Source: Olleya sp. Bg11-27 (GTDB lineage: Bacteria > Bacteroidota > Bacteroidia > Flavobacteriales > Flavobacteriaceae). Taken from it: DNA of 64,000 nt. The position numbers were made by a program, and so were the translations under genes. The DNA lies in assembly GCF_002831645.1 (NCBI RefSeq), contig NZ_CP025117.1:62001-126000 (forward strand), given 5' to 3'. The notes below the pieces were generated by a model that saw only the letters and a list, made by a program, of their open reading frames with translations, was not told the DNA's origin and made no database searches. Shown here in pieces: positions 773-26,834 of the stretch (position 1 is the first letter of the stretch; each line of letters begins with the position of its first letter).

Positions 773-782
773 TTTATTTTTT

Positions 783-1805: not shown

Positions 1806-1839
1806 TTTATAAATTTGATTACTATTCTATTTTAAAAAA

Positions 1840-1928: not shown

Positions 1929-1936
1929 ATACTAAA
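1923..1936. promoter_or_regulatory. Candidate FadR/GntR-type operator upstream of kdgK-eda
   Basis: TTTAGTATACTAAA is a perfect 14-bp palindrome. Its core fits the TTnGTnTACnAA pattern shared with the stronger TTGGTTTACCAA sites in front of the lyase and susC operons. It overlaps the distal arm of the 22-bp inverted repeat. Function is inferred from pattern and position only. Confidence 0.4.
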
Positions 1937-2043
1937 ACTTATATCACAATTTAGCTAAAAACTCACGCTTCTTTACGAGCAACATTACTTTGAATGTGAC
2001 ATAAAGTTTTATTAACTGCTAAATATGCTATTTAAAATTTAAT

Positions 2044-2808: not shown

Positions 2809-2867
2809 TTTTATATGTGTTTAATTTATTTTTAATTTTTATGTTGAATTCTATCCAACAACTTTGA

Positions 2868-5479: not shown

Positions 5480-6382
5480 TTAATGTGTCACTTCTAAATC
5501 ATAAAATCTAACCTTTGCAAAGGCACCTTCGTCTCTGGTTTGAAAATAATTTCCTGCTTTAAAATAATTTTCAAAAACACCCCATTTTTTCATATGAATA
5601 TTTTCGTATACTTTAAACTCGTTTTTATTCAATATAACAACCATTTTACCATCAGAAACCTCAACCTCTAAAGTGAATTTTCCAAATCCAACTTCTTGTT
5701 CAAAATTAAATCCTTCATCATCCCCCCACGCTTCTTCATGTAACATCTCTTCTGGGGTAGAACTTAAATTTTTAAGCACTTTTGTTTTAACTCTAATTTT
5801 CCCTTTATCCCAATATACTTTAAGTATTGGAGGTGCATTATTGTCTTTTTCTCCTATTAAATCTCGCTGCTCATTTGTTAACCTGCCATGAATCTGCATA
5901 ATTATAACACGATGATACTTACCTTCACTATCTTTTGATATATCATCAATAGCAAGTTTACCTTTCATGTAACCTCCATCTTTAAACGTCCAATTTACAT
6001 TATTCTCTCCAGAGACCATTTGTTCTCGTAGTTCTGATCTAGAATATTTAGTATTAGCAGTCGTTGCCTTACTAGGAAAAGCATAAAACACTAATGCTCC
6101 CCTTGTTGAATCATTATACATATAAGGTTTTAAAGACTCATTGGTAGCATAATTTATAATTTCAGGAGGCGAAACCTCTTGAGGTTTTTTACCATTACCA
6201 CCAGGTGTTGTTACTTTCCAATGGGTCAAGTCTATTTCTGGAAGTTTAATTTTCTTCTTCTTTTTACGTTTCTTTTTAGATTTTACTTCCGTCTCTTTTG
6301 TACTAACTTGACTAGATTGGCAGTTAGCATTTAAGACTGAAACAAACACAAACAAGACAATTAATTTAAGTTTTATACGCAT
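5480..6382 (-). CDS. Alginate lyase, polysaccharide lyase family 7
   Basis: 300 aa. The three conserved PL7 jelly-roll motifs are present: YSRSELRE (113-120), QIH (163-165) and YFKAGNY (273-279), which carry the catalytic Arg, Gln, His and Tyr. In this family QIH rather than QVH is usually linked to cutting guluronate-containing stretches. The N-terminus is a secretion signal ending near NANC (Cys21); the lipobox is non-canonical, so surface lipid anchoring is possible but unsure. An unusual lysine/arginine-rich stretch (about 34-46) links the signal to the catalytic domain. It is the last gene of the susC-susD-PKD-PL7 operon, 32 bases after the PKD gene. Confidence 0.93.
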   Translation of the reverse strand: MRIKLKLIVLFVFVSVLNANCQSSQVSTKETEVKSKKKRKKKKKIKLPEIDLTHWKVTTPGGNGKKPQEVSPPEIINYATNESLKPYMYNDSTRGALVFYAFPSKATTANTKYSRSELREQMVSGENNVNWTFKDGGYMKGKLAIDDISKDSEGKYHRVIIMQIHGRLTNEQRDLIGEKDNNAPPILKVYWDKGKIRVKTKVLKNLSSTPEEMLHEEAWGDDEGFNFEQEVGFGKFTLEVEVSDGKMVVILNKNEFKVYENIHMKKWGVFENYFKAGNYFQTRDEGAFAKVRFYDLEVTH

Positions 6383-11800: not shown

Positions 11801-11957
11801 CATTACTGGTTCCTACAACAACAACATTAACATTGGGTAATGGCATGTTGTACTCCGCGTCAACCACTGTTCCGTTTATTGTCACACCGTCTTGAGCAAA
11901 AGCAGCAATACACATGAAGAGCATTGCAAATAGTGCTGATTTAGCTTTTAAATTCAT
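8883..11957 (-). CDS. susC: SusC-like TonB-dependent outer-membrane transporter
   Basis: 1024 aa. After a Sec signal ending AFAQ there is a CarboxypepD-regulatory-like domain (VTINGTVVDAEYNMPLPNVN), the EEVVVVGYGTRKKSHLTGAI segment typical of SusC, and a plug domain with YGSRGANGIIMISTKDG. The remainder is a large 22-strand-type barrel ending in an aromatic residue (NVEF). It energises uptake of glycan oligomers via TonB, here predicted to be alginate. It is first in the operon, with an unusually long (about 200-base) structured leader and tandem operators at its promoter. Confidence 0.96.
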   Translation of the reverse strand: MNLKAKSALFAMLFMCIAAFAQDGVTINGTVVDAEYNMPLPNVNVVVVGTSNGASTDFDGQYQIQVKSGDVLQFSYIGYTAQTVVVGDQKIIDVSLSVDANTLEEVVVVGYGTRKKSHLTGAISKVVNEDLEDIAVARVDDALVGQVSGVNIQSTDGSAGSAPTITIRGAGSITGSSTPLIVVDGLVVDSDYLGSLDMNDVKSFEVLKDAASTSIYGSRGANGIIMISTKDGKEGKTKFSYNTFTGFKQAKHSDAYTFSVAETAAAELAATGTNSDRTKYKQLLGDNTNWQDIIFDGGNITSHSFAARGGSKKTKFSTALSYLHDEGVLLTDDYKKYSLKLKVDTQLNDKFSFGVNLTPSVTDRRRFDGSTHDILRQPSWLPVYLDEHSIQFVNRLRDGGVYADAQIGDYAQQRMFDNYDLATGTPLASGGTSISNTSNTNPAAKILERDRTDNKFKIFGSVYGKYDISDALSFKLTGGGDIQYTKRRRWQGVQASRNGAAAAQLDLFNEKRVHGSLDGYFAYDKSLGNHEISFVGGMATERWKYSNDAISGNGFTSDKLQTISAATSIIDFSSEEYEDVLFSMFARANYAFNNKYLASVSFRRDGSSIFGANNKFGNFPAFSAGWIVSNESFLEESDFISTLKLRASYGFTGSNALDTNNNQVDFYPSYSLLDPSTAVVNGNITNAYNPINIANEDLQWERLVEFNPGIDFGFANNVITGSLDYYNRTSDQLLLNNPVSATTGFTSALVNLGKVKNSGIELELRSRNVSNENFSWNTTLIASKNENELVDFADSNGQIQNVDSKRAAEWVNLEGQPISSFYGWVVDSEIPLEYLSDPYHPLGGQAQDVYVKDLNGDGIIDDDDKTILGNPYPDLVWSLSNDFKIYNFDFSFMFQGSHGAQVRNMADQYLFNHFNSAQDFISSTPNQEFIKEKIFTNSIVQDASYVALRTINIGYNLPRDVVEKLQVNKLRLYISGQNLMYFTADGYTGWNPESIDETSGTTYGYQRGGSPINQTVSVGLNVEF

Positions 11958-12035: not shown

Positions 12036-12130
12036 TACTTTTGTGATGTTATGTTTTTAACATAATTACTTCCCGTCAAAGAAGTGTTTTTTTTTTTAAA
12101 AGGATAGATTTTTTAATCTGTCCTTTTTTT
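12036..12130 (+). ncRNA. Candidate antisense small RNA opposite the susC leader
   Basis: A plus-strand hairpin (12098-12110 with 12115-12127, one G-U pair) is followed by seven T, a good terminator only in the plus direction, yet no plus-strand gene precedes it. An exact TAnnTTTG element, TACTTTTG, lies at 12036-12043, although no clear -33 TTG is seen. An RNA of about 80 nt would be antisense to the susC 5' leader, recalling PUL-associated antisense RNAs of Bacteroides such as DonS. The coordinates run from the -7 box to the last T. This is a prediction. Confidence 0.35.
12098..12130 (+). terminator. Plus-strand terminator hairpin in the susC leader region
   Basis: The 13-bp stem has a TTTT loop and a T7 tail on the plus strand. 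On the minus strand the same hairpin has a C-A mismatch and only four T before an A-run. The asymmetry favours plus-strand termination over susC attenuation. Confidence 0.55.
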
Positions 12131-12154
12131 ATGGTTTTAACCCAATAAATATAA

Positions 12155-12179
12155 TTGGTTTACCAGATTGGTTTACCAA
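12155..12179. promoter_or_regulatory. Tandem operator upstream of susC
   Basis: TTGGTTTACCAG (12155-12166) and TTGGTTTACCAA (12168-12179) repeat at 13 bp. Each is close to the UxuR/ExuR-type FadR-family operator TTGGTATACCAA. The second site overlaps the -7 element of the susC promoter, so bound protein would block transcription. The GntR protein of this locus is the likely binder. Confidence 0.8.
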
Positions 12180-12206
12180 ATATATATAAATATTTGTTAA
12201 TTACAA
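12177..12206 (-). promoter_or_regulatory. susC operon promoter
   Basis: Reading the minus strand, TTG (12206-12204) is followed after exactly 19 bases by TATATTTG (12184-12177), a full match to the Bacteroidota primary-sigma consensus. Transcription would begin near 12170, giving a leader of about 200 nt. Confidence 0.8.
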
Positions 12207-12447
12207 CGTTTTCGTGATTTTTCTATGTTAAAAAACCACATGTTTAAGTTAAAATAGTGGAGAATCACTTAGAAAACAAGCGTTTCATTGCTATTCTATA
12301 AAGTCTTCATATACAAGACTAAACAGATTTATCAAAATTATTACTTGACACTAATTACTTCATTTGGCAAAATAGTTTGAATTTTCACTCAACTTATGAG
12401 TCAAATAAAACCGATTTTAACGTTTCGCACTAGTCAGTCAATTCACT

Positions 12448-12822
12448 TTACTTCTTATCTCCAAAATAAGAGACCTCAGCTCCGCTTAAAAAATCTTCTC
12501 TTACAGGACTGAATGTATCTATCAACTCACCTTCTTCTAAACATACAGCACTGTGTAATAAATTGGGCTCGATATATACACCATCTCCAGCTTCTACAAT
12601 TTGTTTTACGCCATCAATTTCAAATTCGAATTTACCGGAAACACAGTAAGTTGCTTGCGTATGAAAATGTTGATGCGGTGCGCCTAATGCACCCTCGTCA
12701 AATTTTACTCTGACCATCATAATTTGATTATCATAACCTAAAAATTTTCTTGATACGCCACCACCAAGCACTTCCCATTCCATGTCTTTTGTAATGACGT
12801 ATTTTTCACTAGATCGATTCAT
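12448..12822 (-). CDS. kdgF: KdgF-type cupin, uronate ring-opening (linearising) protein
   Basis: A single-domain cupin of 124 aa. The metal-binding cluster His50, His52, His54 and Gln56 (APHQHFHTQ) and the second-motif His90 (PNLLHS) are visible. KdgF converts the cyclic 4,5-unsaturated monouronate released by exolytic lyases into its linear ketone (DEH) and is regularly found in alginate and pectin loci. It follows the PL17 gene by 24 bases and ends the PL6-PL17-kdgF operon. Confidence 0.92.
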   Translation of the reverse strand: MNRSSEKYVITKDMEWEVLGGGVSRKFLGYDNQIMMVRVKFDEGALGAPHQHFHTQATYCVSGKFEFEIDGVKQIVEAGDGVYIEPNLLHSAVCLEEGELIDTFSPVREDFLSGAEVSYFGDKK

Positions 12823-12846
12823 TTTTTTATTTATTTAAGGATTAAT

Positions 12847-15138
12847 TTATTCAAAGTAATAAGCACCACTCCATTGATAATCAACACCATTGATTTTTAA
12901 AGCATGCTTTGCTTCTTCTGAAGCATTTTTATTTGCTGTTATAAAAAGTTTAGTAACACTGTTTATATTAGTTATTGCAATTGCGGTATATTCTTCAGTA
13001 TCTAAAATAACTTTCAATTCTTTTATATTACTATTTGAATTTACAGCAGATTCTGAAACAGGACTATAACTACCATGTGCTTCTATAGTGGACACAAAAA
13101 GTGTGTTCTTAGTGTTTTTTCGTCTTAATAACAATGCAGGGTCCCGACGTAAATTAAACTCAGGATCGTTTGCTCCTATTCTAGTAAACAACAAGTCATC
13201 ATTAGTATTAGTCACCGTGGTTAACGTATAAAACTTACGATTATTTAACCACGAAAATTTACTATTAACATCAGAAGCTTTAGCAGTCGCCTCCACATAT
13301 AAATGTTGATACCCATTTTTACTTCCTAATGGCTTTAACGTTTCTGGTGTTTTGTATTCAAAATTTGTAGCTAATACTTGACCAAAAAAGTAATATGGGA
13401 AATCATATTGATTGATTTTATTGGATACAATTTTCATAATATCCAACACATATGGTTTTTCGAAATCTGGATCTTTGATAATTGCCATAGTACGAAGCAT
13501 TTCTGTCCCGGGATAAGCATTCACCTCTTTTGCACTAACAACTTGTACACTCTGATTGTCCGAAGAAAAATAGTGTAGTACGGAATGGTTTTTACTTCCT
13601 ATTTCATACTTCCCGTTAAAATGAGACGTTTCATTTTGTGTTACAGTATTATGTGCTATAGTTTGTTTTGCCCAGGTCTTATTTTCCTTTAGATAGTTCC
13701 CACCTCCCTTTTGTTCAATATTTACAAAACGTGCTAAACCATAATCCTGAATAACTTCTTCACCATTTTCATATAAAGAATATGATAATTTATCATAATG
13801 ACCATGACTAGACCCCTGAGCTGCATATTTAAAAACAAGTTCTAATTCTTCATTTCTCAAAATACCAACACCTCCTTGTGTTCCATTTGGTCCATCAGAT
13901 AAATTAATCGCCTTTTTATCAAACGGTTGTGCTTCTCCATTTTTAATCCCGAGTGCTACTGCTAACCCCGAATCATCTAATAACACTTTGTCCTGTTTTT
14001 CTGCTACACTTAGTAATCCTGGATTCTGATCTCCAAATTTATATGAAATATCTACAGCCGTAACTAAAGCATCATTATAGTAAGACATTCCTTTTTGACC
14101 ATCATTAAGTGGAAAAAAATCACCATCCGCATCTGATAAATTCAAAAGCGCATTAATCGATTTTAATAACACCCCATCTTTATACTCAAAAATCTTTAAT
14201 TCTGGTTTAACATTATGCAATCCTTCAGCAAAAACTAAAAATGGATACATTGCATAGCGTTGATAATATGGTCCTTCATTATAATAACCATCTGGAGAAA
14301 ATGGTTCTTCTATATTCGCTAAAAAACCAGCTTTACCATCTTTATTTAAAAACCCACCATCATCATCTTTTTCTTTAGTATCTAATTTTAAATCCTTAAT
14401 ACCATATAAAGCACGATCAATTAATTCTTGATCATTCATTACCAAACCAATCATACCCACTGCTGCATTACCCCAAGTACTATGGTTATGCACTCTCTGG
14501 TAAAATTGTGGACTATCTACAGAAATATGATCTGCAAATGGCTTAAATAAATTTGCCTCTAAAGTATTACGTTCTTCTTCAGTCAAATAATTATAAACAC
14601 AATCATAGGCTTGACTCACGTATACTAACCAATTAGCATCGTTTAAACATTGCCAAAACAATTTACCTCTTGCATACGATCTAGTTTTTGGATGCAGTGG
14701 TAATGTTTTATACATAGCCTCATATTGCATCAACATATCCTTTACATATTTAGCATATTTTTCGTCGTCCAAAATCTGATATAATACACCTGCTTTTTGT
14801 AATACAACCATATTACGCTTATGACGCACATGCGTATAACCTCCAGAATAATCTAATGGAATTGGTGTGTCGATTCCTAATGCAATCTCAGCATCTATTT
14901 CTTCTTGCACCGTTTTTAAGGTTCTATCAAAAATAGGAATGCTCCCTAATTGCGCTCTAATATCTTTAACTCCTTGAGCCGTTAAAATCAAATTAGGATG
15001 CATTGTTGTTTTTATTGTTGTCGCGGCTTCCGTTTTACTATTTGTATGCTCTGCATTTTCTTTTTTACAAGAAAATGCAGTCAATACAGTTGCGACTAAA
15101 GCAAATCTTAATATGAAGTTTTTATTAAATGTCATCAT
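12847..15138 (-). CDS. Oligoalginate lyase, polysaccharide lyase family 17
   Basis: 763 aa. A lipoprotein signal ends TAFSC (Cys24). An alpha/alpha-toroid alginate_lyase-type N-half is followed by a heparinase II/III-like C-half. Catalytic-type motifs are RVHNHSTWGN (Asn218, His219), YYNEGPYYQRY (285-295) and GSSHGHYDKL (His445/His447), matching exolytic PL17 enzymes that release monomers from oligoalginate ends. Its ATG overlaps the stop codon of the upstream PL6 gene by one base (TAATG), implying translational coupling. A second ATG follows immediately. It is probably attached to the periplasmic side of the outer membrane. Confidence 0.93.
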   Translation of the reverse strand: MMTFNKNFILRFALVATVLTAFSCKKENAEHTNSKTEAATTIKTTMHPNLILTAQGVKDIRAQLGSIPIFDRTLKTVQEEIDAEIALGIDTPIPLDYSGGYTHVRHKRNMVVLQKAGVLYQILDDEKYAKYVKDMLMQYEAMYKTLPLHPKTRSYARGKLFWQCLNDANWLVYVSQAYDCVYNYLTEEERNTLEANLFKPFADHISVDSPQFYQRVHNHSTWGNAAVGMIGLVMNDQELIDRALYGIKDLKLDTKEKDDDGGFLNKDGKAGFLANIEEPFSPDGYYNEGPYYQRYAMYPFLVFAEGLHNVKPELKIFEYKDGVLLKSINALLNLSDADGDFFPLNDGQKGMSYYNDALVTAVDISYKFGDQNPGLLSVAEKQDKVLLDDSGLAVALGIKNGEAQPFDKKAINLSDGPNGTQGGVGILRNEELELVFKYAAQGSSHGHYDKLSYSLYENGEEVIQDYGLARFVNIEQKGGGNYLKENKTWAKQTIAHNTVTQNETSHFNGKYEIGSKNHSVLHYFSSDNQSVQVVSAKEVNAYPGTEMLRTMAIIKDPDFEKPYVLDIMKIVSNKINQYDFPYYFFGQVLATNFEYKTPETLKPLGSKNGYQHLYVEATAKASDVNSKFSWLNNRKFYTLTTVTNTNDDLLFTRIGANDPEFNLRRDPALLLRRKNTKNTLFVSTIEAHGSYSPVSESAVNSNSNIKELKVILDTEEYTAIAITNINSVTKLFITANKNASEEAKHALKINGVDYQWSGAYYFE

Positions 15139-17486
15139 TAGTTTTTAGCAATAATTCCTATTTCTTTTTTATCTGTCCCTTTTCCTTGTAATGAAGATCC
15201 CTCTAGCAATTGAAATGTTCCTTCCTTAAAGTCAGATTTAATACTATAAAGATTTTCTACATTATATTTCTCGTCTCCAGTAACTTCTATTTCACCAGAC
15301 TTGTAATAGTTATTATTAACGACGTTTACAATTGGCTCTCCTACGACTAAGTGCATTTTTAAACCCTTCGTATTGTTAAAATTATTATTCTGGATATCAT
15401 TTACTTGCACACCATATAAAGACATCGCTGCTTTGTATTTATTTTTCTTACCAAAACCTACATTATTAAATACGTTATGATCGACTTCTAGAAACGGCCC
15501 GAAGGTACTTTCGTCTTTTCCTCCTCTATACAATCTTAAAGCAGCACCTTGCATGTCGGTAACTGTATTGTTTTTCATTAACATATATTCTACATTATAA
15601 GCTCCAATATCATCAGTTTCCTTGTCTAATGCTGCAATATGTCCTGATATATTTTTGAATGTAGAATTTTGAATACTAATTGTATCTGCAAATGTCCCTT
15701 TGGACACTCTCAAGACATCAAAAGAATGATTAACCACCATATCTTTAAACTCGCAATTATCAATAAACAATTTGTAATTATCTAACATAGAATTTTTACT
15801 TGTACTTATCACTGAATTACCTGCGTAATCCGGTGATTTTGTACCATCAAACGATACATTCTCCAAAGATAAACTTCCACCATTCTGGATTTCGAAAGCC
15901 ATCATACGTTCAAATAAAATCGTTGCTTTTTTTGTTCCTGAAGTTTTAAATGTTAAAGGATGATTAATCTGAACCGCTTTAGTAATTAGATAAGTACCAC
16001 CTTCCTCTAATTCTATTATATCACCACCTTCAGAGTCCTTAACAATTTCATACAGCGTATTAATACCAGCTTTAACTTTGATCGTTTTACCAGAATTTAA
16101 AGCAATGTTTGTATCTGCTTTAGAATACCAAGTCGTCCCTGTATTTTCTTTAGTTGCGACATTTGGATTAATAGTAACTTTCGATTTTATTTTATCAGAA
16201 GTTGGTATTAAAAATCCTTGTTCGTTTTTTACTAATCTTATTTCTGCGTTTTCAAAACCGCTAGTAATACTGGTTTTGCCATTTGAACCTAAAAGATTAT
16301 CTTTAAATGTAATGCCACTAATATCATCATACACCGTAAATGTGTCGTCTTTAGTGTCATTATAAAAGATATTTCCTGAAATCTCTGACGTTCTTGGCGC
16401 TTGACTTCTTTCAGAATCACTACCTGCACCTAATTGAATATGATCACAATTTACAAACGTGTTATTATTTAGCTTAGAATCTATAACAGGTACGTAACGA
16501 TTTGGTGGCGAATTTGGCACACCATTCATCATTACAAAAGCACCTCTAAAACGATAGCCCGTTAATCCAACATGGTAATTATTAATTACAGTTTGTGATT
16601 CATTAATGATACGTACACCTCCAGTACTTGGTTTTCCGTTTCCTATAAACACATTCCCATCTACCAAAGTTTCATTTCCATGACGCATGGTTAAGGTTCC
16701 TGTACATTCAAAAAAGGTATTGTATTTAAAAGTATTTTGACACGATTTATTTGAGATAATTTCGTGTTCTCCGTTAGTTCTATCAAAATAGTTAGATTCT
16801 ACTAATGTTTTAGAATTTTCTAATGCCGTATGACTGGTACCAATACGTAATGTTTCTCCACCATTGTTTCCGTAGGTTGGACGTGGTCCGAAATAGTTAT
16901 GATCAATTTTATGATTATTCTTTACACTTTCTTTTGTATCCAAACCGACAATCATAGTCACCCCTAAATTCTTTTTCCCTACAATATGATTGTGATCTAT
17001 ACGATTATTTTTTCCGTAGATAGTGACCCAATAATCTTGTACTTGACGTTCAGGATTATTAAAATTATCAATAACACATTCTGTTAATCTTGTATTATTT
17101 GCTAATTCCTCTCTATTTTTTCTAAATGAAATAACGGCATTTGTTGGTGTATATCCATTTTTAAAAACAAGACCATTAATAATCAAGTGTTCTCCTGCCA
17201 ATTGAAGATTTGAAGCCCCTTCTAGAGTTACCTTCCCTTTAGTTTCCACTGTTAAAGTAATAGGCTTTTCTGTGGTTCCGTGCCCCTCAAAAACCAATTC
17301 CGCATCTTTCCAAACACCATTAGCTAATGTAATTACATCTCCTGGATTTGCGTTTTTAACAGCGTCATTAAACGCTGCTACATCTTTAACTAACAAACCA
17401 TTAGTGCTTGACTCTTTTTCTTTACAAGAAAATATGACAAATAAACAGACGATTAATACTAGCGAAAAGCGTGGTTGTTTTTTCAT
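15138..17486 (-). CDS. Alginate lyase, polysaccharide lyase family 6 (first copy)
   Basis: 782 aa. A lipoprotein signal ends VIFSC (Cys21), followed by a chondroitinase-B-like parallel beta-helix. The PL6 catalytic pair appears as Lys247 (IISNKSCQN) and Arg268 (TLTMRHGNE), with an acidic calcium-site residue at GGETLRIG (Glu211). The C-terminal half, from about residue 455, is a second beta-helix as in long two-domain PL6 enzymes. I chose the ATG at 17486 because the one at 17516 lies inside the tandem operator and upstream of the predicted transcription start. It is the first gene of the PL6-PL17-kdgF operon. Confidence 0.93.
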   Translation of the reverse strand: MKKQPRFSLVLIVCLFVIFSCKEKESSTNGLLVKDVAAFNDAVKNANPGDVITLANGVWKDAELVFEGHGTTEKPITLTVETKGKVTLEGASNLQLAGEHLIINGLVFKNGYTPTNAVISFRKNREELANNTRLTECVIDNFNNPERQVQDYWVTIYGKNNRIDHNHIVGKKNLGVTMIVGLDTKESVKNNHKIDHNYFGPRPTYGNNGGETLRIGTSHTALENSKTLVESNYFDRTNGEHEIISNKSCQNTFKYNTFFECTGTLTMRHGNETLVDGNVFIGNGKPSTGGVRIINESQTVINNYHVGLTGYRFRGAFVMMNGVPNSPPNRYVPVIDSKLNNNTFVNCDHIQLGAGSDSERSQAPRTSEISGNIFYNDTKDDTFTVYDDISGITFKDNLLGSNGKTSITSGFENAEIRLVKNEQGFLIPTSDKIKSKVTINPNVATKENTGTTWYSKADTNIALNSGKTIKVKAGINTLYEIVKDSEGGDIIELEEGGTYLITKAVQINHPLTFKTSGTKKATILFERMMAFEIQNGGSLSLENVSFDGTKSPDYAGNSVISTSKNSMLDNYKLFIDNCEFKDMVVNHSFDVLRVSKGTFADTISIQNSTFKNISGHIAALDKETDDIGAYNVEYMLMKNNTVTDMQGAALRLYRGGKDESTFGPFLEVDHNVFNNVGFGKKNKYKAAMSLYGVQVNDIQNNNFNNTKGLKMHLVVGEPIVNVVNNNYYKSGEIEVTGDEKYNVENLYSIKSDFKEGTFQLLEGSSLQGKGTDKKEIGIIAKN

Positions 17487-17491
17487 ATAAA

Positions 17492-17516
17492 TTGGTTTAC
17501 CAAATTGGTTTACCAA
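17492..17516. promoter_or_regulatory. Tandem operator upstream of the PL6-PL17-kdgF operon
   Basis: Two exact copies of TTGGTTTACCAA (17492-17503 and 17505-17516) lie 13 bp apart directly before the PL6 start codon. The sequence matches the sites before susC and the second PL7 gene. The distal copy overlaps the -7 element. Confidence 0.85.
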
Positions 17517-17543
17517 TATACAAGTTTTTTAATCCTAACCAAA
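17513..17543 (-). promoter_or_regulatory. Promoter of the PL6-PL17-kdgF operon
   Basis: On the minus strand TTTG (17543-17540), a 19-base spacer and TATATTGG (17520-17513) give one deviation from TTTG-N19-TAnnTTTG. The predicted start near 17507 leaves a leader of only about 20 nt, which contains the operator. Confidence 0.65.
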
Positions 17544-17602
17544 ACAATCTATTGACAATTAACTCCAAACTATGCTATTTTGACAACACAAAAAAAACTA
17601 TT

Positions 17603-18877
17603 TTAAAAGTATTCCGTCAAAGCGATAATACCATTATAAGAAATGACACACGCAAAAAGTAATGCTGCAAACAACCCAATATTCACAAAAAGACTTGTTT
17701 TATAATCCCCCATAACCTTTTTACTATTCACCATGATTATAATACCCAAAATCACAAGAGGTAAAACAAACACATTAAACACTTGAGATAAAATCTGAAT
17801 TTCAATAGGGTTTGCTCCAAAAGCAGGCCCGATTAAAGCTACCAAACACGCTACAAAAGTTACAACTCTAAACTGTTTAGAACTTGTATCTAATTCTCCC
17901 GACTGATAATCCGCTAGTAACAAAGGTGCTATTAAAAGACATGGAAATATAGACGACAAACCAGCACTTAATGCTCCAAAGAAAAATATAGTAACAGCCC
18001 ATTTACCAGCAACTGGCTCTAAAGTATTAGCCATATCTAACACACTATTAACTTCTTTTCCTTGATAAAATAGCGCTCCCGCTGCCACAGCCATTATAGT
18101 TGCACTTATGATAAATATCAAAATTGCAGCTGTTATAGAATCCTTTTTTTGTTGTTCTAAATTTTTAATAGTCCATCCTTTTCCTTTTACAAATAACGGT
18201 CTAGATAAAAATGTAGCAGATGCCATAGTAGTACCAACAAATGCAGCAACTAACATTTTTCCTCCCGGAACATCTGGTATTGTCGGAATTAACCCTTTAA
18301 CCACGTCCAAAGGAAGTGGTTGCACAAAACATAAGGACAACACAAAAGAAAAACCCATCAATGTCACAAATATGACTAATATTTTTTCAAAAAAAGTATA
18401 CTTACCAACTAGCATTAATAAATAAAATGTAATAATAATTACAATTGCTGTTATTAAAACAGTTTCGTATTTATAAGCACCTAACCCATCAAAATTGACA
18501 GCTAATATTTCAAAAATAATATTGGATGAAATCCCAAGAATCCCCATCAAAGAATTCCATTGTCCAAACGTAATACCTACTATAATTAAGATTGCTAAAG
18601 CTTTACCATATTTTAAATGCTTTTTAAAACCAAAGAGCGCTGTTTCTCCAGTTATCAAACCATAGTTTCCATAAGCAAACATTAATATTCCAGAAAACAA
18701 ACAACTTAAAAGCAAAACCCATAATAATTGCATATTAAACTTACTTCCCGCAACAATCATTGAAGTAACACTTCCAGTACCTATAGTATAACCAATAGCA
18801 AAAATACCAGGACCGAAACCTAATATTATGGCAATAATTTTTTTGAAAAATGAATTTTTAGGTGTTGTTACATCCAT
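17603..18877 (-). CDS. Nramp-fold (SLC11-like) membrane transporter lacking canonical metal-ligand motifs
   Basis: 424 aa with about 11 membrane segments and overall Nramp similarity (IVAGSKFNMQLLWVLLLS resembles the segment-1/2 region). The helix-1 DPGN motif is replaced by GTGS (33-36) and the helix-6 MPHN motif by ASAT, so the usual manganese/iron ligands are absent. Substrate is therefore unknown; magnesium or a non-metal solute are options. I chose ATG 18877 because an earlier ATG (18961) lies within the upstream gene and adds an unrelated leader. It is the last gene of the PL7-PL6-lyase-gntK/gnd operon, 43 bases after the fusion gene. Confidence 0.7.
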   Translation of the reverse strand: MDVTTPKNSFFKKIIAIILGFGPGIFAIGYTIGTGSVTSMIVAGSKFNMQLLWVLLLSCLFSGILMFAYGNYGLITGETALFGFKKHLKYGKALAILIIVGITFGQWNSLMGILGISSNIIFEILAVNFDGLGAYKYETVLITAIVIIITFYLLMLVGKYTFFEKILVIFVTLMGFSFVLSLCFVQPLPLDVVKGLIPTIPDVPGGKMLVAAFVGTTMASATFLSRPLFVKGKGWTIKNLEQQKKDSITAAILIFIISATIMAVAAGALFYQGKEVNSVLDMANTLEPVAGKWAVTIFFFGALSAGLSSIFPCLLIAPLLLADYQSGELDTSSKQFRVVTFVACLVALIGPAFGANPIEIQILSQVFNVFVLPLVILGIIIMVNSKKVMGDYKTSLFVNIGLFAALLFACVISYNGIIALTEYF

Positions 18878-18920
18878 AATATGTGTGTTAGTTTTTTTTG
18901 GGATTAGTTCGTTTGTTTTA

Positions 18921-20804
18921 TTAGTTCCATTTGGTATGATGAGACTTACCTGAAGCATCATCTAATCTTAGATAAGTATGTGCACCGAAGAAATCACGCT
19001 GGGCTTGGATTACATTTGCCGAAGCATATTCTGTTGTTATTCCATTTAAAAATTGAATAGCTTCACTTAGAGCTGGTGTCGCAATATCATTAAGAACAGC
19101 TTCCGACACTACTTTTTTAGCTGCAGGTCTGTAACTATTAATTTTTGTTATTAATTCTGCATTAGTTAATACGTTGACTGTATCCTTAAACACCGCAACT
19201 AATTCTTCCATTAGAGAAGATCTAATAATGCAACCATTAGTCCAAATTCTAGCAATTTCACTAAGATTTAAATCCCATACAAATTTACCAGAAGCTTCAG
19301 CTATTAACTTAAACCCTTGATAATGGTTAATAATTCGTGCAAACTGATACCCCTTCAAAACCTCATCAGTACTAATTTGTAAATCAGATTTATTACTGCG
19401 ATCAAATTGTTTACTTAATTCGATTCGTTCTTCTTTATAAAACGAAATATATCTTGAAAACAACGCTGAAGCAATTAAAGTACTTGGCACTCCTAGTTCC
19501 GCAGATGCAATCGTCGTCCAGTTTCCTGTGCCCTTATTACCTGCTTTATCTAATATTTTTTTCACCAACCAATCGCCGCCTTCTTTCTTTTTAAAAATAG
19601 TTGTTGTTATTTCTAGCAAATAACTATCTGCTGTATCTGCCCAAGACTGTAAAGTATTAGCTATTACATCTGGACTTTGCCCTAAAGCTTCCAAAATAAC
19701 GGTTACCTCAGCTAGCAATTGCATTTCTACATACTCCACACCATTATGCACCATTTTAATAAACTGACCACTTCCTTCTGGACCAACGTACGTACAGCAC
19801 GGCAGGCCGTTTTTATCTTTAGCTGCAATAGTTTCTAAAAAAGGGGCCACTTTATCATAAGCTTCTTTATCTCCACTTGGCATTATAGATGGGCCTTTTA
19901 AAGCACCTTCTTCCCCCCCAGAAACTCCTGTCCCAATAAAATTAATGCCTTTAGTCTTTAAATAATCGTAACGTTCTTTAGTTTTTTTATAGTTCGAATT
20001 CCCACCATCAATTATAATATCATCTTTTGTTAAATGAGGCAATAAGTCTTCAATAACATAATCTATTGTTTTACCCGCATTAACCATAAGCATAATCCGT
20101 CTTGGCTGTTGTAAAGAATTTACAAAGGCTGAAATATCATCAAAAGCTTCCGCTTGCGACAACTCAGAATATTGTGCTTTAAAGTTTTTAGCAACATCTA
20201 CCTCTACATTCTCCACATACCTATTAAACATCGAGATTTTAAATCCATTATTAGCTAAATTTCTACACAGGCTTTTTCCCATGACACCCAAACCAAATAA
20301 TCCAAACTCTGAGGTATTCATTAATTCTTGTTTTATTTTTTTAATAATATTTTCTGGTGTTGCGCTGATATCTATTTGAATAGCATTTTTCGGAATTTCT
20401 AAAGTATCAAATTGCGACTGCAGTAATTCTGCAGGCATAAAATGATCTGCTCTGTTATTTACTCTTTCAAATATCTGATTGAAAGACCCAGATAAATGTA
20501 CCCAAGCCGTATCGTCTTCAATAGTATGACTTAATAGATCACGATACTTTTGCTTTAAAGCAGAGCACACGATTACACAACCCCCTTTATTAAGCTGCCT
20601 TTTTGCTAAGTCATTTAAAGTCTCTAACCAACCTTGCCTGTCAGCATCATTCAAAGCTTGTCCGTTAGACATTTTTGTAATATTACGTTCAGGATGGAAA
20701 TCGTCACCATCAAAAAAAGGAATATCTAATGCTTCAGACAACAACTTTCCAATAGTACTTTTTCCACAACCCGAAACACCTATAACAAATATTACTTTTT
20801 TCAA
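18921..20804 (-). CDS. Bifunctional gluconokinase / 6-phosphogluconate dehydrogenase fusion
   Basis: 627 aa in one frame. Residues 1-160 are a GntK-type gluconokinase with P-loop GVSGCGKST (9-17) and FFDGDDFHPERN. From Met162 there is a complete decarboxylating 6-phosphogluconate dehydrogenase of 466 aa: GLGVMG (171-176), DGGNSNYKKT, GTGVSGGEEGALKGPS and the lysine motif FIKMVHNGVEY. Together they would turn gluconate plus ATP and NADP into ribulose-5-phosphate and NADPH. Position inside the lyase operon suggests supply of NADPH for DEH reduction, or use of an oxidised sugar. An internal start at 20321 (Met162) could also yield free dehydrogenase. Confidence 0.92.
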   Translation of the reverse strand: MKKVIFVIGVSGCGKSTIGKLLSEALDIPFFDGDDFHPERNITKMSNGQALNDADRQGWLETLNDLAKRQLNKGGCVIVCSALKQKYRDLLSHTIEDDTAWVHLSGSFNQIFERVNNRADHFMPAELLQSQFDTLEIPKNAIQIDISATPENIIKKIKQELMNTSEFGLFGLGVMGKSLCRNLANNGFKISMFNRYVENVEVDVAKNFKAQYSELSQAEAFDDISAFVNSLQQPRRIMLMVNAGKTIDYVIEDLLPHLTKDDIIIDGGNSNYKKTKERYDYLKTKGINFIGTGVSGGEEGALKGPSIMPSGDKEAYDKVAPFLETIAAKDKNGLPCCTYVGPEGSGQFIKMVHNGVEYVEMQLLAEVTVILEALGQSPDVIANTLQSWADTADSYLLEITTTIFKKKEGGDWLVKKILDKAGNKGTGNWTTIASAELGVPSTLIASALFSRYISFYKEERIELSKQFDRSNKSDLQISTDEVLKGYQFARIINHYQGFKLIAEASGKFVWDLNLSEIARIWTNGCIIRSSLMEELVAVFKDTVNVLTNAELITKINSYRPAAKKVVSEAVLNDIATPALSEAIQFLNGITTEYASANVIQAQRDFFGAHTYLRLDDASGKSHHTKWN

Positions 20805-20816
20805 TCGCTTTGTGCT

Positions 20817-23039
20817 TTAATTTGCTTTTACTGAACAATTAATTTTTTGCTTTATCCCTTTCTGAATAATTTCAGCTTTACATTCCTTTTTACTAAGCAA
20901 CTGTAACTTCAACCCTTTAGACTCAGTATTGACTAACACATCAACAACTTCTTCAAACTTAATTTTGGTATCTCCAAATTCTAATGTTTTCACTGAAAAG
21001 AATATGGAGACCTCTGCTTTAGTTAAAGAAACAGCCTCACTATTATCAGCAATCCACTTTGATGCATTAAGCTTCCAACCATTAAATTGTTTGTCTTTGG
21101 CATTCTCATTTATACGCTTGTCATAAGTTTCAAAAGGATAAACAATTGTTATAAAACTGAATTGTTTTGTATTCGATTTTGACACTACAGACCATTCTTT
21201 ACCTCTTGCGCCGTCTGTTTCCACTTTGTCTGTTGTATTCAACTGAAAAATATCTAACCCTGAACCATCATCGAAAGAAGATCGTAATAAATCTCCCCCA
21301 TTTTCTTTCGTGTAATGTCCTTGCCAAACTTGTTTGTATTCGTGACTGTCTTTCGACTTAAAATTATCCTTAACAATCCAGAAATCATTTTTAATAGAAA
21401 TAACTTGTCTGTTATAGTCTACACCAATATTTTCAAAACCATCATGACTACCTACAAAAATATCTAAATGATCACTAGTATCAAAAGCAATTACTTTTGG
21501 TTGCGCCAATTGTTTAAACTTACCAAATCCACTACCTCCTTTATTACTTGTATATTGCTTACCAAGCAGCTCGTTATCTACTAAAGCTACATTTTTAGTC
21601 ATTGAGTTTTTAAACAACTCTAAATCTTTTAAAGAATAACGGACTTGATAATTTGGCATTACAACTTGGCCATTAGCCATTGCTTGAATCCCTAAAATAT
21701 CGCCATGTTGATGATCTGGTTTTAAAGGATCCAATCCAGCCGAAATCACCATCATATTATCCTTTACCTTCCACCCTTCTCGCAGTACATAATACCCTGT
21801 ATCCGGAAAAGACAAAGACAGGTGTTTTGGAGCTACAGAGTTAATGTTTTTTAATTTCTCTAATTGTTCTGCACTAGCATCCCAATAAAATTTTGTACTT
21901 AATTCATTTTTTGCAAAGTATCCCATCTCAGGATCTTCAAAAAGTAAATACCCTAAAGTCATCGCTCCAGAAATATCATTTTTTACGGCCCAAGGAGTAT
22001 CTGTATCGTCAGACAACACAGGCGCTGATTTATCCGGAAATGCAATTTTAGTAAGTGTTGTAAACAACGACTCTAATTTATTTTCCCATACTGGGTTTAT
22101 TGGCAACTTGCTTTTCTTCGCTAATTGGTACACATAAAAATAAGTCCCAATATCACTCATGTGATAATGGATTGTACGTTCAAACTGAAACCCATCGTCA
22201 TTAATTTCTTTATCTAAGTGCTCTCCTAAAAGCGTCATAGAATGCTCATACCACTCGTCTGCACCTTTAAAATCTCTCAACACAATAGACAACATTGCTA
22301 AGGCTGATAACCCTCGCGTTTGGTGGTTCCCAGATTTAAACGTTTTATTATGCTCGTATAAATGTTGAGCATGTTGTAAAAACGTTGCAATAGTTACTAA
22401 TTGCTCCGCATCAGAGTATCCAGACTGTCCTAAAAACAAGCTGTGTAATTGCAACCAATTAATCATTCGATATCCAGACCGGAAGGCTTCGTACACGCCA
22501 TTACCACCTTCAATACGTTCATATTGCTTATTGGTTAAGGCTGTATTTAAAGACGCTAATTGTTCTGTAAAATAATCAAGATATTGTTCATCTTTATTCT
22601 GATAAAAATAATAGTACCCAATATCTATCATTTTATGCTGCCTAGCCAAATGACGCAAGGCATAAGCATTTACTGGATATCCATTTTGATAATTAAAAGG
22701 TAATTCCCATTGCGCTTTCGCGGGAAATTTAGCCAAATGATCCAAAGCGCGTTCCGTGTGTTTTATTTTGGCCTCAGGATAAATTTCTGTATACTCCTTA
22801 AATCGCTTCTCGTTAGTTTCCCAATTATAGAAGTAACGTTCCGTAAATTTTGTTCTAAAGAACTGCGCTAAGTCCGCTTCAGAAATAGTTCCATTGGTTT
22901 TTAAATCTTGCTGAACAGCGTTTGTTAAATAAGATGCTAAATCTTGATTAGACAAAATCTTATCAGAAGGTATCGTTTGCCCTTCAACAGTTTGAAACCA
23001 TCCTAATAAACTTATAAAAAGTAGTGTTATTGACTTCAT
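20817..23039 (-). CDS. Heparinase II/III-fold polysaccharide lyase, probably uronate/alginate-active
   Basis: 740 aa with a Sec signal (no lipobox, ending near VEGQ), an N-terminal alpha-toroid (about 90-390) and a C-terminal beta-sandwich. Candidate catalytic motifs are GNHQTRG, TIHYHMSDIG and PDHQHGDILGI, which resemble PL12/15/17/21/39 enzymes, but I cannot assign the family. It differs clearly from the PL17 enzyme of this locus. It lies one base after the second PL6 gene and 12 bases before the gluconokinase fusion. Alginate is the likely substrate from context; another acidic polymer cannot be excluded. Confidence 0.75.
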   Translation of the reverse strand: MKSITLLFISLLGWFQTVEGQTIPSDKILSNQDLASYLTNAVQQDLKTNGTISEADLAQFFRTKFTERYFYNWETNEKRFKEYTEIYPEAKIKHTERALDHLAKFPAKAQWELPFNYQNGYPVNAYALRHLARQHKMIDIGYYYFYQNKDEQYLDYFTEQLASLNTALTNKQYERIEGGNGVYEAFRSGYRMINWLQLHSLFLGQSGYSDAEQLVTIATFLQHAQHLYEHNKTFKSGNHQTRGLSALAMLSIVLRDFKGADEWYEHSMTLLGEHLDKEINDDGFQFERTIHYHMSDIGTYFYVYQLAKKSKLPINPVWENKLESLFTTLTKIAFPDKSAPVLSDDTDTPWAVKNDISGAMTLGYLLFEDPEMGYFAKNELSTKFYWDASAEQLEKLKNINSVAPKHLSLSFPDTGYYVLREGWKVKDNMMVISAGLDPLKPDHQHGDILGIQAMANGQVVMPNYQVRYSLKDLELFKNSMTKNVALVDNELLGKQYTSNKGGSGFGKFKQLAQPKVIAFDTSDHLDIFVGSHDGFENIGVDYNRQVISIKNDFWIVKDNFKSKDSHEYKQVWQGHYTKENGGDLLRSSFDDGSGLDIFQLNTTDKVETDGARGKEWSVVSKSNTKQFSFITIVYPFETYDKRINENAKDKQFNGWKLNASKWIADNSEAVSLTKAEVSIFFSVKTLEFGDTKIKFEEVVDVLVNTESKGLKLQLLSKKECKAEIIQKGIKQKINCSVKAN

Positions 23040-23040
23040 A

Positions 23041-25377
23041 TTAATACATCAATTTCATTTTCAAATTCTCTTCCGTGTTAATTTGCCCTGAATTAACTAG
23101 GGTGTTTTCGGATTCTACATTATTCTTTGCTCCCCATAATGTAGAGACAAACTGTACTTTGTTGTTTTTAAATGTGTTTTTAGTGATATTCACATTTACA
23201 ATCCCGTTATGATTTAACAATGTTTTGTTCTTTTCTTTAGCTCCACAATTAGTAAAAGTACTATTCGAAATTAAAAGGTTCCCACCGATAGTAGACTCAT
23301 CATACCCTCCTCTATAATAGTCAATCACATTTCCTTTTACAGCTTTAAAACTACAGTTATTAATGGTTAAATACTCTGTATTATAATCTCCTTTATCGTT
23401 CGTTTCTTCTGATAATTCTATTCCGTTTTCGCAGTCTGTGATTGCCGTATTTTGAAAAGTAATACGTTCTGAAAATGATTCTTTATAAACTTTTAAAACA
23501 TAACCAAAATTACTAATTTCAGTATTTGAAACGGTTAGCCCGAAATGGTTAGCCATGTTTTCTTTTAAACTTGCAAAGGCATAGTTATTTTCATTTCCTT
23601 CTAAAACAATATTATTAATCGTTAATTTACCTTTAGATTGTAATGAAAACAATGGTGTCTCAGACGGTCCAACATATACTAATTTAGCTTTCTTTTCTCC
23701 TTGAGATTGTATTGTAATTGTTTTATTGATCACTAAAGCCTTCTTAAAAGTATACCCACCTTCCGCTATAGCGATAATATCTCCATTATTTGCTTTATTT
23801 ATTTCAGCCTGTAAATCCTCTGCTTCGCTTACAACATGTGTCACTGGGGCTTTGTCTTCTGCTTCATTTGAATACCAAGTTGTACCGTACTTAGATTTAT
23901 CCAAAATACTAGGATTAACCGCCTCTGTACCGATTACTGCGCCAATACTGGTATTATCTTTTCTTGACGTTCCAAATAAGTCTTTCTCAATCGTATTAAA
24001 ATCGAAACCTTTATAAGCTTTTATTTCTTCAGGAACTCCTATTGGTAAAAACAGATTATCCGTTAACTTTTTCAACTCTAAAGATGCCGCTATAATACCA
24101 CCATCAAAATCATTAAACGACACGCCTTTATTATCGACTACATTATTTACAAATGTTACACCGTCTGCTTTATCGTTTTCCACAACAATAGCTTCCAACC
24201 CTTTTTCATTATACACAACGTTATTAGCAACCGTTGTTCTAATTGCTCGAGCCGATCTAATTTCTGATTTTGGTAACACATCTGCTTGCGCGATATTTGT
24301 ACCCACACCAAATTGCCAAGGCGAACTACAATTAACGTAAGTATTATAAGCAACAACCACATCTGTGACTTGGTTATAACGGTTTAATGGTGATTTAGGA
24401 ATTCCATTCATAACCGCTAAAGGACTTCTAAAGCTTTTCCCTTTTAAATTGTAAAAGAAATTATTTGTAACCCAATGCCCTGTGTTAATTATTCTAATCC
24501 CACCATAATTCTCGTTTACACCATCACCTATAAAATAATTCCCATCGATTTTACAGTAATTACCATGACGTGTCACTAAAGACCCCTCACTTTTATAAAA
24601 CACATTATTTCTAAACTCGTTGAAATTAGTTTTACTAGAAATCACCTCAACTTCACCATTACATTCTTCAAATAAATTATTAGCAACCATAGTATGGCTT
24701 GGAGACATAGACGTATAACTATTACCTAATTGAATAGTTTCTCCGCTTGGCCCACCTTTTACAGGTCTTGGTCCAAAATGATTATTAATAATTTGATGAT
24801 AATTATTAATACTTTCAACACCTTCTATACTAACTCTTACTGTTGGGCCTCTGTTTGTTTTACCTGCAATATAACTATTGCTCAACTCATTATGTCTTCC
24901 CCAAAATTGCACCCATAAATCACTATTATCCCTTTTAGGCTTATTAAAATCTTCAATAACACAATTAGTCACCTTACAATGGTCAGCGATTTCATCCGGC
25001 GCATCCTTATGACTAATTTTAAAATCTATTACAGCACTAGATGGTGAAAATCCATTTTTAAAATGCAACCCTTCAACCACTAAGTATTTCCCTCCAAATT
25101 TCAAATACGACTGTCCTTCAATGGACACTTTACCTGCCGTTTCCGCCTTTAAGGTTATTGGATTGTCTTCAGTTCCTTTTCCTCTAAATTTTATTTCAAA
25201 ATCCTTATAAGTTCCATTAGCCAACACAATATTATCACCAGGCTTAGCATCTTTAATAGCGCTATTTAATGCTTCTATATTAGATACCGTAGTAACACTA
25301 GCTTGTGTTGTTATTGTTTTTTTTCCACAAGAGATAAGGAAAAGAGATAAAACTAAAATATATACTGTTTTTTTCAT
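23041..25377 (-). CDS. Alginate lyase, polysaccharide lyase family 6 (second copy)
   Basis: 778 aa. A lipoprotein signal ends FLISC (Cys17), followed by a two-part parallel beta-helix. The catalytic pair is Lys249 (VISSKTNFNEF) and Arg270 (LVTRHGNYC); SGETIQLGNS holds the calcium-site acid (Glu213). It shares architecture with the first PL6 gene but is well diverged, so the two may prefer different block structures (MG versus G) or act endo versus exo. A short spacer of 72 bases separates it from the upstream PL7 gene and contains direct repeats of AAAAGACTT. Confidence 0.93.
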   Translation of the reverse strand: MKKTVYILVLSLFLISCGKKTITTQASVTTVSNIEALNSAIKDAKPGDNIVLANGTYKDFEIKFRGKGTEDNPITLKAETAGKVSIEGQSYLKFGGKYLVVEGLHFKNGFSPSSAVIDFKISHKDAPDEIADHCKVTNCVIEDFNKPKRDNSDLWVQFWGRHNELSNSYIAGKTNRGPTVRVSIEGVESINNYHQIINNHFGPRPVKGGPSGETIQLGNSYTSMSPSHTMVANNLFEECNGEVEVISSKTNFNEFRNNVFYKSEGSLVTRHGNYCKIDGNYFIGDGVNENYGGIRIINTGHWVTNNFFYNLKGKSFRSPLAVMNGIPKSPLNRYNQVTDVVVAYNTYVNCSSPWQFGVGTNIAQADVLPKSEIRSARAIRTTVANNVVYNEKGLEAIVVENDKADGVTFVNNVVDNKGVSFNDFDGGIIAASLELKKLTDNLFLPIGVPEEIKAYKGFDFNTIEKDLFGTSRKDNTSIGAVIGTEAVNPSILDKSKYGTTWYSNEAEDKAPVTHVVSEAEDLQAEINKANNGDIIAIAEGGYTFKKALVINKTITIQSQGEKKAKLVYVGPSETPLFSLQSKGKLTINNIVLEGNENNYAFASLKENMANHFGLTVSNTEISNFGYVLKVYKESFSERITFQNTAITDCENGIELSEETNDKGDYNTEYLTINNCSFKAVKGNVIDYYRGGYDESTIGGNLLISNSTFTNCGAKEKNKTLLNHNGIVNVNITKNTFKNNKVQFVSTLWGAKNNVESENTLVNSGQINTEENLKMKLMY

Positions 25378-25449
25378 AAGTATTAATAGTGTTGTATTTA
25401 TAAAAGATAAAAGACTTTTATTTTATTAAAAGACTTGATTATTATTATT

Positions 25450-26379
25450 TTAATGTGCCACGCTTAAGTCATAATACTTAACATAAGAAAAAGCATCCGT
25501 ATCTATAGTTGTCAAGTAATTTCCTGCTTTAAAGTAGTTTTCATAAGGCCATTTATCTAAACTTATATCTTCATAGACAAACGCATCGTCATTATTTAGC
25601 TGCACTTCTATCCTAGCATCACTAGCTGTTATTCTAAAATCAAATGCTTCAAAACCAACATAACCCAAATTCACTTTAACATCCAACCAAGTCTCATTAG
25701 AAGTCTCTAATAACGCATCACCTTCAGTTGCTTCATCAATAAGCGATTTTTTATGAGACCAAACAAACCCATCCTTCCAATAAATCTTAATTAAAGGCGG
25801 ACCATTACTAGACGAAAAACCATGTATACTCATATCTTCTGGAGAAATAATACCATGAATTTGCATAACAATTACTTTATGGTAGTCATCTCCAGATGCT
25901 GTGTTTTCTGAAACAGCATCGACTTTTAATCTCCCTGTCATTTCTCCACCTTCTAATAACGTCCAATTCTCATTAGAACTATTTGTATCTATTAACTCCC
26001 GTAATTCTGTTCGAGAATACGAACTATTTGTTGTAGATATATCTGGAAATGCGTAAAAGACTAAAGAAGCATCTGTCTCATCATCATACATATAAGGCTG
26101 GACGGCTTCTAAAGTTTGATAACCGTAATCTACTAATTGTGCAGGCTGATACTCGTCAGGACTTCCATTACTATTTTCATCTACAGGTAAAGTAACTTTC
26201 CAATTAGACAAATCGATAGCTGCCCAATTTCCTGTATCTGACCCAGAGTCCGTTTCTTCTGGTGCGTTATTATCGTCAATAACCTCTACTTCCGCTGACT
26301 CTGTTAACAAAGCCGTTTCATCACTGCTACAAGCGTAACAGGCAAATATTAAAAATAAATAAAAGTGCGTTCTTTTCAT
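25450..26379 (-). CDS. Alginate lyase, polysaccharide lyase family 7 (second copy)
   Basis: 309 aa. A lipobox ends CYAC (Cys17), followed by an acidic linker (about 29-48) and a PL7 jelly roll with YSRTELRE (121-128), QIH (173-175) and YFKAGNY (282-288). It should be a lipid-anchored, probably surface-exposed endolytic lyase. Its acidic linker contrasts with the basic linker of the first PL7 protein. It is first in the PL7-PL6-lyase-gntK/gnd-Nramp operon, directly behind the tandem operator. Confidence 0.94.
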   Translation of the reverse strand: MKRTHFYLFLIFACYACSSDETALLTESAEVEVIDDNNAPEETDSGSDTGNWAAIDLSNWKVTLPVDENSNGSPDEYQPAQLVDYGYQTLEAVQPYMYDDETDASLVFYAFPDISTTNSSYSRTELRELIDTNSSNENWTLLEGGEMTGRLKVDAVSENTASGDDYHKVIVMQIHGIISPEDMSIHGFSSSNGPPLIKIYWKDGFVWSHKKSLIDEATEGDALLETSNETWLDVKVNLGYVGFEAFDFRITASDARIEVQLNNDDAFVYEDISLDKWPYENYFKAGNYLTTIDTDAFSYVKYYDLSVAH

Positions 26380-26834
26380 ACTTACTGCAACTGGTTAACC
26401 AAACTGGTTTACCAAATATAGGATTTTTTAGGACACTAGTAAAACAATAAACTTAATAAATAGTATCTAAAATTAATTATTCCACAATAACCCACCCTTT
26501 TTAATACACAAAACCATCATTTTGCTTAAAAAAATAGCAGTATCCCAAATACATCTAATCTTAAAAATAGATCAAGAATATCCATTCCTTTTTTATCCAA
26601 AATTTACTTTCAATTAAAAGTTTATAGTCTTTAATTAGATATAAAAACAAAGATTAAAAACCTTAAAAAGAAGACCTTAATCCTAAAAACAAAAGACAAA
26701 ACCATGCAAATCTTGACAATTGAGGTGATAAAAGCTGTTTTTTGTCTAAAATGTTAAAATTATGTTATAATTACTGTAGCTTTTTGAAATTAACTTATTA
26801 ATTTTGAATTAATATAACACTAAAATAGAATCTA
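26380..26834. other. Divergent intergenic region between the PL7 operon and the LEA-like lipoprotein
   Basis: Apart from the operator/-7 box near 26391-26420, this 455-base AT-rich stretch shows no gene. It must also carry the plus-strand promoter of the lipoprotein, but I cannot find a clear TAnnTTTG with a paired TTG. TAGCTTTT near 26777 is the nearest match. Confidence 0.6.
26391..26420 (-). promoter_or_regulatory. Tandem operator and -7 box of the second PL7 operon
   Basis: CTGGTTAACCAA (26391-26402) and CTGGTTTACCAA (26404-26415) are spaced 13 bp like the other two sites, with a C in place of the first T. The minus-strand TATATTTG (26420-26413) is an exact -7 element overlapping the distal site. 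The -33 region is weak. Confidence 0.75.

Follow-up and report, generated by a model that had tools for sequence, protein, structure and literature searches.

Paired operators that overlap the -7 box mark a predicted AusR-type alginate regulon in Olleya sp. Bg11-27

The tandem palindromes that stand before the alginate genes of Olleya sp. Bg11-27 are best explained, with high confidence, as predicted operators for a repressor of alginate genes, of AusR type, whose own gene lies at 4633-5334 of the window, that is, of the whole 64,000-nucleotide stretch of DNA analysed here. By computation, this reading draws on the sites, their spacing, their register with the -7 box, the co-occurrence of arrays and regulator, and the alginate genes that the arrays precede. 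The AusR regulon of Zobellia galactanivorans was reportedly described by Dudek et al. in 2020 (Nucleic Acids Res.). In the papers that cite the Zobellia work, AusR is a GntR-family repressor of alginate genes that is released by an alginate metabolite (PMC7874173, PMC8286568, PMC8073546) and its operators are single, double or triple (PMC7874173); repression, copy number and release would carry over by analogy, and the likeness is one to these descriptions, not to Zobellia sequence. The predicted operators here, in two or three copies at alginate promoters, fit AusR's one to three. The system is therefore already published for Zobellia, and the present case adds another AusR-type regulon, which differs in belonging to another genus and in having a gluconokinase/6-phosphogluconate dehydrogenase (6PGDH) fusion and an Nramp-related gene in a controlled operon.

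Co-occurrence was assessed in 249 genomes of the family, drawn evenly from a larger group, with the genome classes (regulator, array, Nramp, RNA) assigned by hand. A close relative of the regulator is present in 63 of them (E at most 1.6e-71), while the next-best match, in G242, has an E value of 1.6e-56 and that genome holds no array. The paired pattern, with one mismatch allowed, was found in 61 of the 63 genomes with the regulator versus none of the 186 without it, and the array with its fixed -7 fusion is thus specific enough for alginate regulons to be listed from the sequence only. The two exceptions, G025 and G225, possess triple arrays before SusC-like genes, which fall outside the A/T centre of the paired pattern and were recognized by a looser rule that was not applied to the other 186 genomes. 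Taken with the alginate targets, this co-occurrence points to the GntR protein as an AusR-type alginate repressor, and it lends support to the preliminary description, which had placed an alginate regulon under this very protein.

Table 1. Features of the predicted regulon (window positions unless a contig or locus is named)
Feature	Coordinates	Strand	Basis or remark
KDPG aldolase, pfkB-type kinase, SDR, MFS transporter (uronate catabolism)	107..4493	-	Domain profiles
GntR/FCD regulator, AusR-type	4633..5334	-	Pfam GntR and FCD; co-occurrence with arrays; fold
PL7-type alginate lyase	5480..6382	-	Domain profiles
SusD-type protein	7428..8867	-	Domain profiles
SusC-type outer-membrane receptor	8883..11957	-	Domain profiles
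Possible -7 box of predicted antisense RNA, TACTTTTG	12036..12043	+	Sequence pattern
Predicted antisense RNA core, hairpin and terminator-like hairpin	12061..12140	+	Model R1, 63.9 bits, E 6e-10
Double AusR operator (predicted)	12155..12179	-	Serves susC-susD-PL7-ausR-uronate genes; -7 box TATATTTGG at 12184-12176
KdgF-like cupin and PL17-like oligoalginate lyase	12448..15138	-	Domain profiles
PL6-type lyase	15138..17486	-	Pfam Chondroitinase B
Double AusR operator (predicted)	17492..17516	-	Serves PL6-PL17-KdgF-like genes; short -7 form TATATTGG at 17520-17513
Nramp-related protein, GTGS in TM1, no MPH in TM6	17603..18877	-	In AusR-controlled operon (predicted)
Gluconokinase/6-phosphogluconate dehydrogenase fusion	18921..20804	-	Inside AusR-controlled alginate operon (predicted)
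Heparinase II/III-like protein, PL6-type and PL7-type lyases	20817..26379	-	Domain profiles
Double AusR operator (predicted)	26391..26415	-	Serves PL7-PL6-lyase-GntK/Gnd-Nramp-related genes; -7 box TATATTTGG at 26420-26412
Triple array, fourth in genome	G000:C1:2742737-2742774 (outside window)		Precedes CBM6-PL7 alginate lyase gene
CBM6-PL7 lyase, fourth regulon member	L086:7665-9218 (G000:C1, about 2742.7 kb)		Behind triple array

The alginate locus lies on the minus strand, from 26379 down to 107, and falls into three groups of genes, the first gene of each being preceded by one array. The first runs PL7, PL6, heparinase II/III-like protein, gluconokinase/6PGDH fusion and Nramp-family protein; the second, PL6, PL17-like oligoalginate lyase and KdgF-like cupin; and the third consists of SusC, SusD, a PKD protein, PL7, the GntR/FCD regulator, an MFS transporter, an SDR, a pfkB-type kinase and KDPG aldolase. 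Each array is a tandem of TTGGTWWACCAA palindromes spaced at exactly 13 bp and was found where the preliminary description had put it (12155-12179, 17492-17516 and 26391-26415). The overlap or contact with the -7 box that it reported was likewise recovered: at all three arrays the minus-strand -7 box ends inside copy 1, the final bases being common to both, and the TATATTGG of the middle array is one base shorter than TATATTTGG. The start codon of the PL6 gene behind this middle array is the ATG at 17486-17484, versus a TTG at 17516 in the ORF list; the array therefore belongs to the leader, upstream of the start codon.

Searching for the 25-bp pair of site 1 with up to three mismatches returns sites 1 and 2 in the window, where none is expected (100 shuffles); the third pair diverges more from site 1 and was recovered with a degenerate pattern. 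Across the 4.31-Mb single-contig genome this degenerate pair pattern, again with up to three mismatches, matches only the three window arrays and one triple array, and its reversed control matches once. All three arrays of the preliminary description are therefore real, although the fourth, triple one had been overlooked. Single-copy sites were dropped as regulon markers, since the single 12-bp motif has 19 matches genome-wide versus 17 for its reversed control; as the single motif is at chance level and the pair pattern is not, it is the array that carries the information.

Arrays were called distant when over 45 kb separated them from the regulator or when they were on a different contig, and 35 of the 36 distant regions among the matches listed were analysed (G014:C1:260355 was left out). 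Thirty-three of the 35 contain arrays at up to two mismatches per copy, at least 39 arrays altogether, and the remaining two (L108 and L164) have no array within that limit. The distant arrays stand 9-251 bp before the chosen ORF, which, where several were close, was the longest on the strand with the -7 box. We scanned 37 proteins behind the 39 arrays, leaving out two of L189. Polysaccharide lyases account for 29 of the 37 (17 PL6-type, 9 PL7-type and 3 with Pfam Polysacc_lyase, two of them below the cut-off), and the others comprise three SusC proteins, three with a secretion-sorting domain only, one gluconokinase-like kinase (L107) and one Nramp-related protein (L188). Unrelated genes, whose dominance among paired-site matches the preliminary description had regarded as fatal to its proposal, thus make a poor showing. 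Arrays also point to genes for alginate use other than lyases, namely the gluconokinase/6PGDH function, which may be a route to NADPH in alginate-fed cells, and the Nramp-related protein without a metal site. The kinase of L107, in G184, is a lone gluconokinase-like gene with its own AusR array, and scores 89 bits against an NCBIfam cut-off of 113.75.

For the Nramp-related protein, we took as start the ATG close to which the majority of matches to orthologues begin. When aligned to solved MntH chains, it has GTGS in place of DPGN in TM1 and ASA in place of MPH in TM6, and so lacks the canonical motifs of Nramp metal importers; among 26 distinct GTGS proteins aligned, GTGS is kept and MPH is absent in all. 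An AlphaFold model was poor (pLDDT 54) and was set aside. Orthologues of at least 57% identity occur in 32 of the 249 genomes, 31 of which are among the 63 with AusR, and 28 orthologues lie within 19 kb of the AusR gene. In 13 of the 32, the window included, the Nramp gene directly adjoins a gluconokinase gene, which may stand by itself, be fused to 6PGDH or have 6PGDH beside it (coordinates compared by eye). More distant relatives can also be found behind arrays: that of L188 lies 17 bp behind an AusR array in G236, and G184:C3:14562 lies, by coordinates, 168 bp after an array at 14370-14394.

Of 23 GTGS-type matches of about 35-41% identity, 16, a small and similarity-chosen sample, were examined for neighbours, using Pfam or NCBIfam on representatives and BLAST on the rest. 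NagA-like and/or NagB-like genes are near 10 of the 16 (one with NagA only, two with NagB only, and one NagB-like gene 2.9 kb off), a UxaC-SDR-Nramp-UxuA row is seen in two, a ManA-like neighbour in two, GH10 in one, and none of these in one. Relatives in nagA-nagB and uxaC-uxuA operons, together with the loss of the metal site, suggest a carbohydrate permease. We judge it an evenly balanced proposition that the GTGS clade gave up metal transport and imports carbohydrates, which would be a sugar acid here, proposed to come from the alginate or gluconate pathway, and amino sugars, hexuronates or mannose-type sugars in the relatives. That the protein still imports a divalent metal, to supply lyases or other alginate-pathway enzymes, is possible but doubtful: its best solved match, 7qia, is annotated as a divalent metal cation transporter, and EleNRMT moves Mg2+ without the canonical metal motif according to the available text of PMC12873925, whereas both motifs are replaced in the window protein and its relatives adjoin nagA/nagB, uxaC/uxuA and manA-like genes.

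In the same text, the Nramp-related groups apart from NRMT-like and G-motif 3, which make up most of them, are described as entirely uncharacterized (PMC12873925). The proteins treated there share with ours the Nramp family in Pfam and the absence of DPGN and MPH, but the GTGS members here, compared by description rather than by tree, are found in sugar and sugar-acid operons. A search of titles and abstracts returned no report of Nramp genes in alginate or sugar operons. If the carbohydrate permease reading is true, proteins described as uncharacterized would gain a function, that of a sugar permease with an Nramp fold, and the link to AusR arrays makes the function of such a transporter group testable. 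Three further Nramp proteins of 29-30% identity (L207, L208 and L209) have LamB/YcsF genes as neighbours, and those of L207 and L209 have carboxyltransferase-domain genes close by as well, a make-up that we take to be that of 5-oxoprolinase operons; these proteins possibly serve 5-oxoproline uptake. TM1 reads IGPGT in L207 and L209, and the L208 match leaves TM1 uncovered.

For the geometry of the arrays we used a locus sample made up of the best 80 of 371 relatives of the GntR protein plus the window (1.62 Mb). Between copies that have no more than one mismatch, the distance is 13 bp in 127 cases, 26 bp in 28, 39 bp in two and 33 bp in one, and up to 40 bp no other distance is seen; the spacing is thus 13 bp or a multiple in 157 of 158 close pairs. 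At up to two mismatches, arrays are present in 78 of 81 loci (the 80 plus L086 from the window's own genome) and absent in three. There are 118 of them (77 two-copy, 36 three-copy and 5 four-copy), with SusC downstream of 75, arrays before PL6-type genes having been counted under a neighbour gene or as "none". Nine of the 118 precede ausR. An array of its own before ausR was ruled out in the window, where TTGGTTTACCAA has no match within two mismatches between 688 and 9811, and the window gene may share its transcript with susC.

Register was read in 106 of the 118 arrays, after dropping 10 without an assigned gene and 2 near a locus end. TAnnTTTGG starts exactly five bases before copy 1 in 94 of the 106 and a form one base shorter is present in 8, so that 102 have a -7 box in fixed register; at the far end of the array the box is never found (0/106). 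The flavobacterial sigma-A -7 consensus is given as TAnnTTTG in the available text of PMC9723704, and an exact TTG 17-23 bp upstream is present in only 50 of the 94 canonical promoters. This fixed register of -7 box and copy 1 indicates that operator and -7 box form one composite element. Conservation of the palindrome itself should not be used as evidence, because the motif was defined on AusR loci and the copies were chosen by closeness to it.

Without alginate, AusR dimers would occupy the 12-bp palindromes, copy 1 taking in the end of the -7 box and further copies covering the transcription start region, and RNA polymerase would thereby be kept off the promoter. On alginate breakdown, an inducing metabolite would bind the FCD domain and AusR would let go, so that the susC, PL6/PL17 and PL7/PL6 operons and the distant CBM6-PL7 lyase would be expressed together. 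We infer the steric mechanism, the binding of one dimer per copy, the cooperativity and the identity of the effector. A spacing of 13 bp corresponds by arithmetic to 1.24 turns of B-DNA, which would set neighbouring dimers some 44 angstrom apart, with a rotation of about 86 degrees between them. Close packing of FCD-type dimers has a precedent in NanR of Escherichia coli, likewise an FCD-type GntR repressor with a repeated operator, on which several dimers sit close together and cooperatively; NanR, in the account of PMC8012715, differs in its GGTATA direct repeats about half a turn apart and in cooperating through an N-terminal extension. Such packing argues against a simpler arrangement, rather unlikely in our estimate, in which a single copy serves as operator, the other is kept in reserve, and dimers bind singly and without cooperativity. 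Copy 1 is indeed the better preserved (79 perfect copies versus 28 for copy 2, of 106), and single operators are reported for Zobellia (PMC7874173), yet the 13-bp period is almost exclusive in arrays of two to four copies. The available text of PMC4494728 reports, for 13 FadR-subfamily groups, weaker half-sites situated 7-12 nt from the centre of the site; a second palindrome placed 13 bp away falls at such a distance too.

The susC leader is predicted to encode, in addition, a conserved antisense RNA resembling DonS. A strict pattern for a conserved hairpin between array and susC matches 50 of 76 leaders (75 relatives plus the window). The window's own leader fails this pattern and scores as listed in Table 1 with a later model, the window sequence itself being among those used for it. 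On the strand opposite susC, a -7 box is followed by a hairpin, in most cases with a C-rich loop, then by a terminator-like hairpin and finally by a T run. TAnnTTTG precedes the hairpin by 25-60 bases in 40 of 51 leaders when the antisense strand is read; mononucleotide shuffles give 3.1 on average and 9 at most, and the opposite strand gives 0. In alignments holding 46 and 38 of the 51 leaders (A3 and A4), four stem pairs are changed on both sides, and another feature is a stem pair that on the antisense strand reads U-G in 36 of 46 sequences, which in the sense RNA would be a C-A mismatch; both features favour the antisense strand. It is on these grounds, and on the placement of TAnnTTTG, that we consider it unlikely that the hairpins work as an attenuator or plain terminator of the sense mRNA with no antisense RNA, even though the stems fold on the sense strand too and a loose rule finds a sense-direction terminator-like hairpin in 43 of 75 leaders.

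With the covariance model at E at most 1e-5, the predicted antisense element is found in 46 of the 249 genomes, all with AusR, which makes it alginate-specific in the family at this threshold, and 47 of the 48 matches are no more than 76 bp away from an array; a further seven genomes have matches between 1e-5 and 1e-3, three of them lacking AusR. This co-occurrence arises partly by construction, since the model was made from AusR loci, some of which are probably in the searched genomes, but the absence of the element from other genomes is not by construction. Rfam has no match in 11900-12500 at E 1 or, with gathering scores as the cut-off, in the 6 loci searched out of the 80, and no title or abstract among those searched reports an RNA antisense to the susC of an alginate locus. 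The DonS family of Bacteroides is described in the available text of PMC7366714 as RNAs of 78-128 nt that are divergent to susC homologues and repress them. The predicted RNA here is similar, at about 90 nt in a susC leader with its own predicted promoter and terminator, but it belongs to an alginate locus of Flavobacteriaceae, is tied to AusR arrays and is recognized from its sequence. If the prediction is true, marine Flavobacteriaceae would have a second brake on their uptake of alginate, one that acts at the RNA level.

Turning to the regulator itself, the protein at 4633-5334 has a GntR helix-turn-helix and an FCD domain (Pfam, fold), and its predicted structure (pLDDT 79) matches GntR/FCD proteins. 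Seven residues are invariant in an alignment of 29 relatives, namely R41, R51 and R55, which we take to be the DNA-contacting arginines of FadR, and D151, H155, H200 and H222, presumably the FCD metal site. The preliminary description had called the sites UxuR-like, which holds for their shape, as the UxuR palindrome has a 2-nt centre between GT and AC like that of the window arrays (PMC4494728), but not for the protein: membership in UxuR/ExuR was rejected, with NCBIfam scores of 74 (73.8) and 71 bits versus cut-offs of 442 and 396. UxuR and ExuR of E. coli are FadR-subfamily repressors, as here, although they act on hexuronate genes and the window regulator is tied to alginate genes. Because the motif is a generic FadR-subfamily palindrome (PMC4494728) and GntR binding to the arrays is a prediction, a LacI-type or second GntR regulator might read them with the 4633-5334 protein a mere neighbour, but this is highly improbable given the tight co-occurrence with this protein even in genomes whose arrays lie far from it, and given that no second relative is present in the window's genome at E 0.001. 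As a point against the AusR reading, next to the three loci without arrays and the promoters without an exact TTG, G171, the sister genome from this genus, lacks the regulator and the paired array alike, and the system therefore varies within the genus. The two nearest relatives of the window protein are both from Olleya, at 91 and 88% identity.
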